A stretch of DNA of 56,306 nt from Anaerolineae bacterium (GTDB lineage Bacteria > Chloroflexota > Anaerolineae > Aggregatilineales > UBA3940), in the NCBI GenBank assembly GCA_016926255.1, contig JAFGOY010000079.1:1-56306 (forward strand). Direction: 5' to 3'. Positions 16,078-48,916 of the stretch are shown here, one piece after another. Each line of letters starts with the position of its first letter. Position 1 is the stretch's first letter. Below the pieces are notes generated by a model that made no database searches, was not told the DNA's origin, and saw only the letters and a list, made by a program, of their open reading frames with translations. Made by a program: the position numbers and the translations under genes.

Positions 16078-17229
16078 TCACCCTAACCACTTCCTATACA
16101 CCCGGTGACGCTTGTACACTTCGGCCCCCGTCGCCTCCGCCAGATCAGCAAGCATCCGAGTGTTGTCTTCCTGCATCTGGACGATATCCACATGTTTGTA
16201 TGAGGAACCGAGAACCGTCTTGAACAATTCATCGTAGAGAATCGCGTTCGCCCCCAATCCCTGGTAAGCGGGAAGCACCGCGTTCCCGTTGAGATTCAAC
16301 CAGTCGGTGCGCCGACGTTCCAGAACAAGCGCCAGCCAGCCGAAGGGATACAACCGTCCTCTGGTGCGCTGAATCGCCGCCGACAGGTCAGGATAAGCGA
16401 AGCTCAAACCGATCAGTTCCTCGTCTTTGTTGAAGATGATTTTCATCAGTTCCGGCGTGGCGATGATCACCAACCGACTGATCAGTGCTTCGAGTTCCTC
16501 ATCGGGGATCGGCGTGTAAGCCCACACCGATGCAAAAGCCTGGTTGTATGCCTGCTGGATCACGCGGGCATATCGGCGCACCTGGGCTTTCGTTTTGAAA
16601 GCAGGCACGTAGAACCCTCGCCGCTCGCGGATTTTCTCCGCGATCCGCCGGATGCGCTCCGGGTAGAAGAGATCGGCCTGGGCGATATAACTCGATACGT
16701 AATCGACTTCTTTTTCCATACCGCCGACGGTTTCCCAGTGCTCGACGTAGTAGGCCGGATTGTACCCAACGCCCATCGCCGGACGATGCTCGAACCCGTC
16801 GACCAGCAGGCCGAGGCTGTCGCCGGTCAGGAAGCCTTTCGGCCCCACCAGCCGATCCAGTTCGCGCTGCCTCGCCCACGTCTCGACCGCATCGAACAGC
16901 AGTTGGGCAACATCGTGATTGTCGACCGCCTCGTAGAGATAGATCAGCGCATCCCGGTTGTGTCGATAATCGTTGTGCGGGCGATGCTCCAGTACAGCGA
17001 CGCGGCCAACAGCCTTTCGGTTTGCATCCCGAACCAGGTAGAAAGCGGCTTCAGAGTGCTTGAAGAACGCGAAATCGGGCCGGAAGCGTGCCCGCTCGCT
17101 GGGCATCAGGGGCGGCACCCATTGGGGAATATCTCGATAAATCTCAAAAGGTAAATGGATAAAATCACGAACATCGCGCCGGTTGGCGCGATTGACTTCG
17201 ATGACTTCTAGAGGGCTTTTTTCAACCAT
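16078..17229 (-). CDS. GNAT-like acyltransferase family protein, copy 1
   Basis: A 383-residue protein of the GNAT-like superfamily found next to diverse metabolic genes in many bacteria; the exact substrate is unknown. The N-terminal half holds FIHLPFEIYRDIPQWVPPL and a beta-strand region with VGRVAVLEHRPHN. The C-terminal half holds LNGNAVLPAYQGLGANAILYDELF, the pyrophosphate-binding style loop of acyl-CoA N-acyltransferases. It is clearly paralogous to the protein at 47780-48916: both share LPF-[ED]-[IL]-Y near the N-terminus, HRPA-x-GV-x-YN in the middle and an H-x-[VI]-YRK terminus. It lies 15 bases downstream of the universal stress protein gene, so the two are probably co-transcribed. 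Confidence 0.8.
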   Translation of the reverse strand: MVEKSPLEVIEVNRANRRDVRDFIHLPFEIYRDIPQWVPPLMPSERARFRPDFAFFKHSEAAFYLVRDANRKAVGRVAVLEHRPHNDYRHNRDALIYLYEAVDNHDVAQLLFDAVETWARQRELDRLVGPKGFLTGDSLGLLVDGFEHRPAMGVGYNPAYYVEHWETVGGMEKEVDYVSSYIAQADLFYPERIRRIAEKIRERRGFYVPAFKTKAQVRRYARVIQQAYNQAFASVWAYTPIPDEELEALISRLVIIATPELMKIIFNKDEELIGLSFAYPDLSAAIQRTRGRLYPFGWLALVLERRRTDWLNLNGNAVLPAYQGLGANAILYDELFKTVLGSSYKHVDIVQMQEDNTRMLADLAEATGAEVYKRHRVYRKWLG

Positions 17230-45066: not shown

Positions 45067-45501
45067 TCAGGAAGCCTGGGCAGCTTCTAACCTTTCAGCC
45101 TTGGCTACGATCTCGGCCAAATTGGTTCCTCCCAGCCTGTCGACCAGCATTTTTTGCGCATCGGTGAAGATCTCGCAGAATGGGCAGGCATCTGCCAAAT
45201 GGCAGACCTCGGGATCGCGCGTACAGCGATTGACCATGATCGGCCCGTCGATAGCCTCGATGACCTCCAACATGGTTATCATCTGCGGAGGGCGGGCAAG
45301 GCTAACACCGCCGCTTGCGCCGCGTGTTGCTTCCAGGATGCCCCTCACAACAAGCTGAGACACAATCTTGGCAAGAAACGGGAGGGGAATTTGCTGTCTT
45401 TCGGCGATGGTCGAAGTCGGGGCGCGCTCCCCTTCAGGAAGCCGTGCAACCTCGACAACAGCACGGAGGGCGTAATCAGCCTGTCTTGTTATTTCTAACA
45501 T
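45067..45501 (-). CDS. Rrf2-family regulator, IscR-like
   Basis: A 144-residue winged-helix regulator. MLEITRQADYALRAVVEVAR starts the DNA-binding domain, and TSTIAERQQIPLPFLAKIVSQL forms the recognition helix-turn-helix. The wing RGASGGVSLAR and Cys93, Cys100, Cys106 and Cys109 follow. The spacing C-x6-C-x5-C fits a [2Fe-2S] site as in IscR/RsrR-type proteins, so it likely senses iron-sulfur status, redox or NO. It is divergent from ssb; a palindrome at 45590-45603 could be an operator. No Isc or Suf genes lie nearby. Confidence 0.9.
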   Translation of the reverse strand: MLEITRQADYALRAVVEVARLPEGERAPTSTIAERQQIPLPFLAKIVSQLVVRGILEATRGASGGVSLARPPQMITMLEVIEAIDGPIMVNRCTRDPEVCHLADACPFCEIFTDAQKMLVDRLGGTNLAEIVAKAERLEAAQAS

Positions 45502-45834: not shown

Positions 45835-46236
45835 GTGTTTCAACAATGCATGATAATCGGCAACCTTGGGCGTGATCCTGAGATGCGCTATATGCCCGAT
45901 GGTCGCCCGGTGACCAATTTCACCGTGGCAGTGAACAAAACCTGGGCCAACGCCGATGGCACCCAGGGAGAAAAAACCTGGTGGTTCCGAGTTAACTGCT
46001 GGGGACGGCTGGCCGAGACTACCAACCAGTATCTCAAAAAGGGCCGCCAGGTTATGGTGATCGGCGAAGTTGACGCTTCGGCCTACATGCCAAAAGACGG
46101 CACCACTGAACCGAGAGCAACTCTCGAACTACGGGCGCAGGTCGTCAAGTTCCTCGGCGGGCGTGACGCGGTTGACGTTGATGATTTCGGCGGCGGCGGC
46201 AGTTCTTACCAAAGTGAAGAGGATATCCCGTTCTAA
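45835..46236 (+). CDS. ssb: Single-stranded DNA-binding protein
   Basis: A 133-residue SSB with one OB-fold (1-105: MIIGNLGRDPEMRYMPDGRPV, NCWGRLAE, LKKGRQVMVIGEV) and a short Gly/Ser linker. The acidic tip EEDIPF is the conserved partner-docking tail. It binds single-stranded DNA as a tetramer. The tail is short compared with typical 150-180 residue SSBs. The start is a GTG with an ideal AAAGGAGG. The translin-family gene follows after two bases, an unusual neighbour; rpsF and rpsR, the common ssb neighbours, are absent. It may be an accessory rather than the only SSB. Confidence 0.95.
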   Translation: MFQQCMIIGNLGRDPEMRYMPDGRPVTNFTVAVNKTWANADGTQGEKTWWFRVNCWGRLAETTNQYLKKGRQVMVIGEVDASAYMPKDGTTEPRATLELRAQVVKFLGGRDAVDVDDFGGGGSSYQSEEDIPF

Positions 46237-46238
46237 AC

Positions 46239-46880
46239 ATGAATAATCTTGATTCCATCGGCGATACTATTCGTACAGAGCTTGAGATGAAAAACGCTGC
46301 GCGGGATGCAGCGCTCACCCAATCCCGTCTGTTGATCCGGTACTGTGCCAACACCATCAAATCTGTTCATCGCAAAATGTGGGATGAGGCCAAAGAGGGC
46401 TTACAGACTGTCAAAGAGGCCGCCAATGGCCTGATCGAGAGCGTCAAAGATTATCCAGACCTGTACCACTCTGGATATACGCAGGACGCACTGAAAGAAT
46501 ATGTCGAAGCATTCGTGACCTATGCACTGGTTCGCGGTGAGCCGCTTCCCGGTTCGGAAGAACTGGGAGTGCCCGGCAGCACCTATCTGAATGGTCTGGC
46601 TGAAGCCGCCAGCGAGATGCGCCGTACCATCCTCGATATCATCCGGACAGATCACGATGAAAAAGCGGAGCGGCTTCTCGAAGACATGGATACGATCTAC
46701 AACCTGTTGATGACCTTTGACTTCCCCGACGCCATCACCTACGGCCTTCGACGTCGTGTCGACAGTCTGCGTGGAGTCGCAGAACGGACACGTGGCGATC
46801 TGACCAACAGCCTGCGCCAGAAGCGATTGCAGGCGGCCCTCAGCAATTTAGAGGAGCGCCTCAAAGATACTTTGGAATAG
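46239..46880 (+). CDS. Translin/TRAX-family protein
   Basis: A 213-residue all-helical protein of the translin superfamily, known mainly from eukaryotes and archaea. LKEYVEAFVTYAL (85-97) matches the TRAX segment that holds two catalytic Glu. TYLNGLAEAASEMRRTILD (115-133) matches the GLADLxGELRR-type motif. Glu87, Glu90, Glu122 and Glu126 therefore occupy the positions of the TRAX acidic quartet, with Glu for one Asp. The tail VDSLRGVAERTRGDLTN fits the last translin helix. Family members form ring-shaped or football-shaped oligomers that bind and, when acidic residues are present, cut single-stranded RNA or DNA. It has no ribosome site of its own and is probably coupled to ssb. Confidence 0.85.
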   Translation: MNNLDSIGDTIRTELEMKNAARDAALTQSRLLIRYCANTIKSVHRKMWDEAKEGLQTVKEAANGLIESVKDYPDLYHSGYTQDALKEYVEAFVTYALVRGEPLPGSEELGVPGSTYLNGLAEAASEMRRTILDIIRTDHDEKAERLLEDMDTIYNLLMTFDFPDAITYGLRRRVDSLRGVAERTRGDLTNSLRQKRLQAALSNLEERLKDTLE

Positions 46881-46890
46881 TCTCGCGGCG

Positions 46891-47157
46891 ATGAAACAAC
46901 TGGCGGAAAGGTTGGACGGCGATTCGCAGTATCCCACCCTGATCACCGTTCAGGGGATCGGAGCTTATCTCGTTTGTCACCGGGCCTGGTGGCTGGCCGA
47001 GGTACTGGACTATGCGCCGGACGATGAGAGCCGCCTGGCCCGTCAAATATTATCCCGACGAAAGAAGCTTGCTCAGCGATTGGCACTGATCGGCGGGCTG
47101 ATGATCGCTACTGCCATTCTGATCATGGTGCTGGGCCTGCTGCTGGGATCAAGCTGA
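46891..47157 (+). CDS. Cas4-like protein, N-terminal part with membrane helix
   Basis: An 88-residue protein. Residues 16-37 (TLITVQGIGAYLVCHRAWWL) match the beginning of Cas4/DUF83 proteins, where the first iron-sulfur Cys sits in a C-x-R-x-[YWF]-L context; here it is Cys29. The basic stretch RLARQILSRRKKLAQR replaces the usual G-x3-H motif, so motif I His is missing. A transmembrane helix follows at 64-86. The remaining Cas4 elements are found in the next gene, which starts one base after this stop but in another reading frame. The pair reads as one Cas4-like protein divided in the middle of a helical hairpin. Function unknown. Confidence 0.7.
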   Translation: MKQLAERLDGDSQYPTLITVQGIGAYLVCHRAWWLAEVLDYAPDDESRLARQILSRRKKLAQRLALIGGLMIATAILIMVLGLLLGSS

Positions 47158-47158
47158 C

Positions 47159-47689
47159 ATGGCCGCAGCCGGACAGATCATCCCGCTGCTGCTTTTCGTG
47201 ATCGGAGCGTTGCTTCTGATCGCCTCCTACCGCCTGACCCGCGCCATCCGCCCCACCGGGCATGTCGATCAGGTTGACGGCGACACTGAAGCCTATGTAC
47301 CACACGGCCTGCTGATTCTCGTCGAAGACAGGTTGGCCGGTCAGCCTCATGGTCTGCTGCGCTTGGCCGACAGGCAGCAGACCATTCCTATCCAGGTGAT
47401 CGACAGGGCATCTCCCGCTGTTCCCGATCAGGTTGCTGGCTGCCAGATGTCAGCCTTCTGCTATTTGGTAGAGGCGATCTACGATCAGGAAGTGCCCTAT
47501 GGGATGCTGCGCTATGCCGATCTCGACGTTCAGATCGACTGGACGCCGGAAAACCGTCAGGCATTGGCAGATCTGTTGTCCGAGATGCGCTTACAGGCAG
47601 AGGCGAGCAACGTTGACCGCTCTCATAACACCCCTTCGATCTGCGCGGCTTGTATCGTCAAAGAGGTTTGTGATCAGGCTTTAGTCTGA
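47159..47689 (+). CDS. Cas4-like protein, C-terminal part, nuclease residues replaced
   Basis: A 176-residue protein with an N-terminal helix (7-24) and a Cas4/DUF83 (PD-(D/E)XK) C-terminal region. PYGMLRYADLDVQIDWTPE and SAFCYLVEAIYDQEVPYG are strongly family-like. The three C-terminal iron-sulfur cysteines are Cys162, Cys165 and Cys171 (C-x2-C-x5-C). The nuclease triad is lost: the GxPD Asp reads His64 (GQPHGLL), and the PVE-x-K pair reads PIQVI, with Gln79 and Ile81. With Cys29 of the preceding gene all four cluster ligands exist. A membrane-bound Fe-S protein without nuclease activity is therefore expected. No cas1, cas2 or CRISPR lies in the window. Confidence 0.75.
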   Translation: MAAAGQIIPLLLFVIGALLLIASYRLTRAIRPTGHVDQVDGDTEAYVPHGLLILVEDRLAGQPHGLLRLADRQQTIPIQVIDRASPAVPDQVAGCQMSAFCYLVEAIYDQEVPYGMLRYADLDVQIDWTPENRQALADLLSEMRLQAEASNVDRSHNTPSICAACIVKEVCDQALV

Positions 47690-47779: not shown

Positions 47780-48916
47780 ATGCTGACTATCCACGAAATT
47801 GACACAACCAGACGCCGCGATGTCAATCGCTTCATACAATTCCCTTTCGATCTCTACGAAGGTTGCCCTCAATGGGTGCCAATGCTGGTCGGAGATTCGC
47901 GCCTGCAGCTCAACCGCAAAAAGAATCCCTTCTATAAATACAATGACGCCGCCTTCTTCATTGCTGAAAAAGACGGCAAGGACGTTGGGCGCATCGCTGT
48001 GCTGCATCCCAAATTCTTCAACGAGTTCAAAGGTACTCAAAATGTCCACTTCTACCTGTTCGACTGCATTGACGATCAGGAAGTCGCCAACCTGCTGTTT
48101 GATACAGCTGCAGCTTGGGGAACCGAGCGCGGCCTGAATCTCATCCGGGGTCCGCTGGGGTTCATGGCCCTTGACGGTTTCGGGATGCTGGCGAAAGGCT
48201 TCGACCATCGCCCGGCAGTCGGGGTGCCGTATAACTACGATTACTATCCCCGCCTGACTGAAGCCTGGGGCTTTGAACTCGAAGAAAGGGTCTATTCTGG
48301 CTATCTGGACGTAGCAGAGATTAGAAATACCTTCCCCGAAAAAGTCCTCCGGCTCTCCGATAAGATCAAAGAACGCTATGGATTTGAGATCAAGACATTC
48401 AAGACAAAGCGTGAACTCGTAAAATGGGCAACCCCGCGCCTCGCAGATCTCTACAATCGCACATTGACCCACATCGCGGGCGACACGCCCGTCACGCAGG
48501 AGGAAGCCGAAGTTGTCGCCGAAAGCGCCATGACCATTACCGATCCCAGGCTGATCAAGATCATCATGAAAGACGATGATATTGTCGGCTTTCTGTTCTG
48601 CTTCCTGAATATCTCCGACGGCCTCAAAAAATCACGCGGGCGGCTGTTCCCCTTCGGCCTGATTCACATCCTGAACGACCTGAACAATACCATCTACATC
48701 GATCTGAATGGAATGGGCGTCCTGCCCGAATACCAGGGACAGGGCGGAACGGCAGTAATGTACGCCGAGCTGTACCGGTCACTTGAGGCGTTTCCTCGCT
48801 TCAAGCATGCCGATGTCGTCCAGATATCGGAGTTCAACTCACAGAGTCTCAACGAGTTAAAACGCTTTGGAGTTGATATGTACAAAGCGCACCATATCTA
48901 TCGTAAGGAACTCTGA
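47780..48916 (+). CDS. GNAT-like acyltransferase family protein, copy 2
   Basis: A 378-residue paralogue of the protein at 16078-17229. Shared segments include FIQFPFDLYEGCPQWVPML, VGRIAVLHPKFFN, the central GFDHRPAVGVPYNYDYY and the acyl-CoA-binding-type loop MGVLPEYQGQGGTAVMYAELY. The terminus is HHIYRKEL. The substrate is unknown; the family is annotated only as N-acetyltransferase-like. GAGGAG lies before the ATG. It has its own 90-base upstream gap and a strong terminator, so it appears to be transcribed alone. Confidence 0.8.
   Translation: MLTIHEIDTTRRRDVNRFIQFPFDLYEGCPQWVPMLVGDSRLQLNRKKNPFYKYNDAAFFIAEKDGKDVGRIAVLHPKFFNEFKGTQNVHFYLFDCIDDQEVANLLFDTAAAWGTERGLNLIRGPLGFMALDGFGMLAKGFDHRPAVGVPYNYDYYPRLTEAWGFELEERVYSGYLDVAEIRNTFPEKVLRLSDKIKERYGFEIKTFKTKRELVKWATPRLADLYNRTLTHIAGDTPVTQEEAEVVAESAMTITDPRLIKIIMKDDDIVGFLFCFLNISDGLKKSRGRLFPFGLIHILNDLNNTIYIDLNGMGVLPEYQGQGGTAVMYAELYRSLEAFPRFKHADVVQISEFNSQSLNELKRFGVDMYKAHHIYRKEL

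Follow-up and report, generated by a model that had tools for sequence, protein, structure and literature searches.

A pair of neighboring genes from an Anaerolineae bacterium raises the question of what a Cas4-type protein does once its cutting site has gone and its iron-sulfur (Fe-S) cysteines have stayed. The genes lie in a stretch of 56,306 nucleotides (contig JAFGOY010000079.1), which was analyzed at its full length and is called the window below. A preliminary description, made from the letters alone, had proposed a Cas4 relative divided over two genes, and comparisons of sequence, profile, and fold bear this out. On balance, the pair is best explained as a two-subunit, membrane-anchored, Cas4-like Fe-S protein, represented in the window by a pseudo-nuclease that probably holds ssDNA or partner proteins at the membrane.

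The Locus and Its Two Genes

The two genes, termed the N-half and the C-half, lie in a short gene series and are separated by one base between the N-half stop and the C-half start. The features of the locus are as follows.

45067-45501, - strand: rrf2, encoding a regulator of the Rrf2 type whose three cysteines are clustered; oriented divergently from ssb
45835-46236, + strand: ssb (Pfam SSB, E 1.5e-29), which opens the conserved ssb-translin-N-C arrangement
46239-46880, + strand: translin-like gene (Pfam Translin, E 1.2e-4; 22.5 bits, below the cutoff of 25.9), directly upstream of the N-half
46891-47157, + strand: N-half, 88 amino acids, the Cas4 N-terminal segment with Cys29 and without the motif-I His
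46975-46977, + strand: Cys29 codon (Cas4 cysteine 1 of 4; invariant column, alignment A4)
47062-47151, + strand: predicted N-half membrane helix, residues 58-87, at the extreme C-terminus (AlphaFold2 helix, block pLDDT 85-98 over the main part)
47159-47689, + strand: C-half, 176 amino acids, a membrane helix followed by the PD-(D/E)XK/Cas4 core and cysteines 2-4
47177-47245, + strand: predicted C-half membrane helix, residues 7-29 (AlphaFold2)
47348-47350, + strand: His64, replacing the catalytic Asp (alignment with relatives)
47393-47401, + strand: Gln79 and Ile81, replacing the catalytic Glu and Lys (alignment with relatives)
47642-47671, + strand: Cys162, Cys165, and Cys171, Cas4 cysteines 2-4 (invariant in alignment A3)
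47780-48916, + strand: GNAT gene, downstream of the C-half

The preliminary description had placed Cys29 in the first gene and Cys162, Cys165, and Cys171 in the second, and had considered the active site lost; both statements hold. The cysteine columns are invariant in relatives, that of Cys29 containing Cys in 196 of 198 N-half rows and a gap in the remaining two. The Asp, Glu, and Lys of relatives are replaced by His64, Gln79, and Ile81 in the window, and the N-half has no motif-I His. The window C-half keeps Gln96 of the QhxxY motif, the Tyr of which has become Phe100 (motif names partly follow passages of PMC4625639). The pair lies far beyond chance, since homologous gene pairs occur in most genomes of the class. 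Elsewhere in the window, GNAT-like N-termini appear similar by eye in two genes, 16078-17229 (- strand) and the GNAT gene at 47780-48916 (+ strand).

Homology and Fold

Taken alone, the window C-half is a weak match to Pfam Cas_Cas4 (PF01930), with an E value of 0.0013 and 19.3 bits against a curated cutoff of 22.7, which it misses. Relatives such as L029 pass this cutoff, and the model matches all 14 members of the family alignment, including the window C-half, with a best E value of 3.2e-14. NCBIfam TIGR00372 ("CRISPR-associated protein Cas4") and the PADLOC Cas4 models also match 14/14 family members, and the family profile retrieves the solved Cas4 chains 8d3l, 4r5q, 7mi4, and 4ic1.

The preliminary description had made its case depend, in advance, on a PD-(D/E)XK fold, and a fold of this Cas4 type is indeed predicted for the C-half. 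The AlphaFold2 model, based on 79 sequences (mean pLDDT 85.9, pTM 0.72), consists of the helix at residues 7-29 and an alpha/beta core. When this model is searched with Foldseek, Cas4 ranks first (E 2.9e-4). With VIA-align, 103 residues are aligned to 7mi4_A at an rmsd of 1.9 (Z 12.7), and 8d3l_J and 4ic1_G give Z 10.5 and Z 8.1; other PD-(D/E)XK nucleases (AdnA, MGME1, RecE) come next after Cas4 at Z 8-10. The tertiary fold of the N-half is unsure owing to the lower scores of its model (mean pLDDT 72.5, pTM 0.36), in which helix 20-39 contains Cys29 and a long confident helix spans residues 58-87. At E values up to 1, 13 of 23 N-halves touch Cas_Cas4 (best 0.005) and 8 of 23 touch PDDEXK_1 (best 5.7e-4). 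The assignment of the N-half to Cas4 thus draws on a conserved motif, gene pairing, and natural fusions, and not on a strong profile match.

Measured against the Cas4 family, the window pair has the predicted fold and the four Fe-S cysteines (one plus three, over two genes); it lacks a score above the curated profile cutoff, the catalytic Asp, Glu, and Lys with the motif-I His, and the single polypeptide.

Division, Pairing, and Distribution

The preliminary description had called for a comparison of split and fused relatives, as the division could have reflected a sequencing frameshift. Relatives are divided at the same point, and a frameshift or assembly split was therefore rejected. Across 199 genomes of the class, both halves occur in 135, the C-half only in one (G043), the N-half only in three (G044, G100, and G166), and neither in 60, giving C-halves in 136 and N-halves in 138 genomes (Fisher p 5e-46, relatedness ignored). 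Depending on the genome, the halves are adjacent, one gene apart, or far apart; in many genomes (e.g., G003, G010, G156, and G196) they occupy distant loci or other contigs, and in G010 they lie at 0.24 Mb and 3.05 Mb of one contig. A 4-base overlap was counted in 27 of 103 adjacent pairs, a figure biased by choosing the start codon nearest the N-half stop and given no evidential weight.

Beyond the class, the C-half profile finds matches in 149 of 400 genomes of the phylum at E values up to 1e-8, although some of the weaker matches are probably ordinary single-chain Cas4. Among 26 loci outside the class (L198-L223), an N-half match was found in 24, the exceptions being L210 and L221, of which L221 is of the ordinary single-chain kind. 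When GTDB species contigs were scanned, 310 relatives were returned, and of the 80 listed, 79 bear Chloroflexota names and one is an "uncultured bacterium." Across the phylum, members of this family are ordinarily split and mostly have an intact active site; inactivation came later, in several lineages. The overall interpretation of the preliminary description accordingly stands in part: homology, split, helices, topology, and a dead site with retained cysteines remain, and it is amended in that inactivation is later than the split.

Natural single-chain loci, with both halves in one frame and joined at the split point, number ten. Two adjacent membrane segments are kept in five of them (L071, L073, L218, L252, and L257), and both segments are lost in the other five, all of one genus. 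A further apparent fusion, L046/L070 in G213, consists of broken N and C frames and reflects an assembly error or a pseudogene. Two C-half matches each were seen in G251, G292, and G248 of family f2. A phage origin was also considered and rejected, as an IMG/VR scan with a single peptide pattern gave 35 pattern matches and zero relatives.

Membrane Topology

One membrane helix per half had been proposed, and both the AlphaFold2 models and a Kyte-Doolittle hydrophobicity scan agree with this prediction. In 185 of the 186 separate N-halves and 206 of the 215 C-halves, the scan detects a hydrophobic segment of 19 residues. The C-halves it misses are L081, which is a single-chain Cas4 of the ordinary kind, L113 (1.55), L259 and L263, both cut by contig ends, and five fused forms from a single genus. 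The segment lies at the end of the N-half (median of 3 residues after it) and at the start of the C-half. On average, 2.75 Lys/Arg residues fall in the 12 residues before the N-half helix, 0.46 after it, and 3.28 in the 12 residues after the C-half helix. From this asymmetry and the positive-inside rule, both working segments are predicted to be cytoplasmic, in keeping with the hairpin topology put forward in the preliminary description, with both domains on the Lys/Arg-rich side. The window has the gene-level features of the proposed membrane-bound two-subunit Cas4, namely an N/C gene pair with a predicted membrane helix in each product.

Loss of the Catalytic Site and Retention of the Cysteines

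Among 223 distinct C-halves, the catalytic residues read Asp-Glu-Lys in 194, Asp-Asp-Lys in 4 (L081, L082, L084, and L221, ordinary single-chain Cas4 types by sequence), and are altered in 25. The altered forms comprise the window, the 10 genomes of family f3 with a match (same order), members of another group, f76, and a few others; in L256 the alteration is mild (Asp to Glu). The Cys triad is kept in 25/25 altered C-halves. A readable triad is missing in 5 of the 198 unaltered C-halves, four of which (L046, L143, L277, and L223) have gaps at contig ends or in a broken frame, while in L262 the triad columns hold C, G, and a gap. Once the sequences are dereplicated below 60% identity (15 altered and 74 intact), the altered set has the three cysteines as its sole invariant positions. 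In L029 numbering, conservation falls from intact to altered forms from 1.00 to 0.13 at Glu76, from 1.00 to 0.53 at Asp63, and from 0.99 to 0.33 at Tyr97. Group f76, in which the motif-I column is partly misaligned, was left out of any His-loss count. Parsimony on a FastTree phylogeny gives 9 changes of catalytic state, of which at least 3 are forced by well-supported branches. In addition, Asp40 (L029; alignment A1), located before the known motifs, is almost fully conserved in intact forms (0.99) but not in altered ones (0.20); its disappearance alongside the catalytic residues suggests a possible place in the active site.

It might be asked whether the window protein still cuts DNA by means of other residues. 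A reviewer's comment in the portion of PMC4625639 concerned notes that some nucleases are active despite changes at the Glu. In the window, however, Asp, Glu, Lys, the motif-I His, and the Tyr are all changed together, and no second copy turned up in the window genome, which makes continued nuclease activity very improbable. The loss of the cutting site with all four cysteines kept points to a second, non-cutting job, such as the anchoring of ssDNA or partner proteins favored here.

Selection on an altered form could be examined in genus g4 (five genomes, family f3), which carries a fused version without helices. Over 10 genome pairs, dN/dS is 0.023-0.062, with 0.023-0.047 in six pairs of dS 0.20-0.77 and 0.037-0.062 in four saturated pairs. 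These low values indicate strong purifying selection on the fused altered form, which belongs to a family other than that of the window. The g4 loci L229-L233 (e.g., L229:5692-6333) encode a soluble fused Cas4-like protein of 183 residues with Glu replaced by Leu and without the motif-I His; their neighbors look, by eye, like MurJ-type flippase and patatin-like genes.

Genuine fusions, which exclude L046/L070, are all altered: they make up 9 of the 25 altered forms and 0 of the 194 Asp-Glu-Lys forms, and they come from two or three clades only. That every genuine fusion in the set is catalytically altered would suggest that the split guards against uncontrolled cutting. This belongs to a broader, tentative reading, less likely than not, in which a single Fe-S cluster formed across two separately encoded chains of a Chloroflexota membrane enzyme is a clasp that turns the divided nuclease on; in lineages without catalysis, the clasp function would persist and the genes might fuse.

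The Window Copy within Its Order

The window copy is an orthologue by position within an ancestral ssb-translin-N-C operon, as the same gene order is found in L054 and in L134, the latter being the cultured Anaerolinea thermolimosa IMO-1. Within the order, 21 of 154 genomes give a strong C-half match (E below 1e-30) and 20 of 154 an N-half, and 11 of the 21 C-halves are altered. The window pair itself has been seen in a single genome and is missing from the 8 further members of its family (f1), two of which (G200 and G206) give weak Cas4-like matches. The window branch is very long, at 1.92 changes per column, and its placement in the tree is unsure.

This patchy occurrence and the long branch would fit a decaying remnant of an active split Cas4 that has no present function, and at L033, in the window's own family, an FHA/winged-helix gene (L033:2317-2967) stands in the pair's place with the rrf2, ssb, translin, and GNAT-type genes present. 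However, the window pair has two open frames, all four cysteines, and both predicted helices, its core continues to be modeled with a Cas4 fold, and other altered lineages recurrently keep the cysteines as well. In a neutral simulation started from the intact orthologue L054, absence of stops together with retention of the four cysteines survived in 4.2% of runs at 0.1 substitutions per site and in 0.2% at 0.2, a test that is uninformative for a recent catalytic loss. Under neutral change, retention of frames and cysteines is therefore unlikely beyond about 0.2 substitutions per site. Decay thus appears rather unlikely, and the open frames, four cysteines, two helices, and intact predicted fold suggest that the window copy is functional.

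Gene Neighborhood and CRISPR Association

The company kept by the pair offers a further indication of its role. Of the 178 N-halves with at least 700 bp of upstream sequence, 63 have a translin gene no more than 300 bp upstream. Among C-halves, ssb is encountered up to 2.5 kb upstream in 19 of the 132 with sufficient sequence, NAD kinase (nadK) up to 400 bp downstream in 44 of 206, and RecN at a distance of up to 2.5 kb in 25 of 133 (NAD kinase and RecN being identified by Pfam on L131). In some lineages, L,D-transpeptidase genes lie between the halves. The mixture of ssb, translin, and recN, although each association is partial, points to single-strand or end metabolism and would suit housekeeping rather than defense. 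At L131:3696-7591, the N-half, C-half, NAD kinase, a B-box zinc-finger-like gene, and a RecN-type gene follow in series.

The Rrf2-type regulator bears on the suggestion, which goes back to the preliminary description, that the pair is a redox or DNA-damage sensor, in which the cluster would report oxidation state or DNA contact to membrane partners. Such a role would account for cluster ligands being the sole invariant positions once catalysis is lost, and a three-cysteine regulator divergent to ssb would suit it. Nevertheless, no signaling partner or output domain was seen, Rrf2 occupies the same place in just one other compared locus (L033, which is without the pair), and a purely structural cluster explains the same conservation; a sensor is accordingly an unlikely reading, less likely than decay.

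The models that name the family after CRISPR, TIGR00372 and the PADLOC Cas4 set, could be taken to imply a CRISPR adaptation protein. Yet no Cas1, the mark of an adaptation Cas4, was found in the window genome (completeness 95.99), and within the class Cas1 is present in 84 of 136 genomes with the pair and 34 of 63 without it (p 0.35, no association). A CRISPR role was rejected for the window genome on these grounds and has next to no probability.

Proposed Function and Known Relatives

The two-subunit anchoring protein favored here draws on what comparisons of sequence, profile, and fold show, namely the homology of both halves to Cas4, their near-obligate pairing, and their hydrophobic anchors, together with a nuclease site that is lost in the window and repeatedly lost elsewhere with strict cysteine retention, and purifying selection on one altered lineage. 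Each subunit would be a cytoplasmic segment on a single membrane helix, the two helices standing in for a hairpin. The halves would dimerize through these helices and through one Fe-S cluster ligated by Cys29 of the N-half and Cys162, Cys165, and Cys171 of the C-half, meeting at the cytoplasmic face clasped by the shared cluster. In most Chloroflexota, the pair may serve as a nuclease that is held at the membrane and processes single strands or ends. The version in the window lineage would be a non-cutting, cluster-stabilized anchor that binds DNA or a partner beside SSB and translin; the window, f3, and parts of f76 would thus keep only the binding and clasp functions.

The solo-Cas4 proteins of the Chloroflexi are plausibly the C-halves analyzed here. 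Passages of Hudaiberdiev et al. describe a monophyletic solo-Cas4 group in many Chloroflexi, consider all Cas4 active from their motifs, and report four conserved cysteines in all members (Hudaiberdiev et al., 2017; PMC5704561). In a search of the text of that paper, "split" and "transmembrane" occur 0 times, and the open-licence PMC literature yielded no description of a Chloroflexota Cas4 that is split or membrane-bound. With Cas4 and RecB-like PD-(D/E)XK Fe-S nucleases, the window protein shares the fold, motif order, CxxC(5)C triad, and N-terminal Cys; unlike them, it consists of two polypeptides with two predicted membrane helices, lacks a CRISPR link, and has a dead site.

DNA2, AddB, and Bad have a nuclease core stapled by four cysteines in the same way, but they are single chains joined to helicases, soluble, and active. 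Papers on Fe-S nucleases of this kind include PMC7311471, PMC3466216, and PMC7430649. The one precedent found, an inactivated Cas4 divided so that Cys1 and Cys2-4 fall in separate proteins, is TP1/gp7 of the archaeal virus TTV1, turned into a viral nucleocapsid according to the relevant passages of PMC4625639. The gene is divided there as well and the site altered. In contrast to the window pair, it comes from one virus, TP1 carries the motif III position, so that the break lies further downstream, and those passages judge TP1 to be without a cluster and report no membrane helices.

Phylum-wide matches to the model "CRISPR-associated protein Cas4" appear to be one half of a membrane-bound two-subunit protein without a CRISPR link, the other half being short and easily missed. 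The family also constitutes a natural experiment, in which catalysis is repeatedly lost and Fe-S ligands never, making a non-catalytic role of Fe-S clusters in DNA-processing proteins directly testable. For such work, a cultured strain is available in A. thermolimosa IMO-1, which carries the intact ssb-translin-N-C operon.
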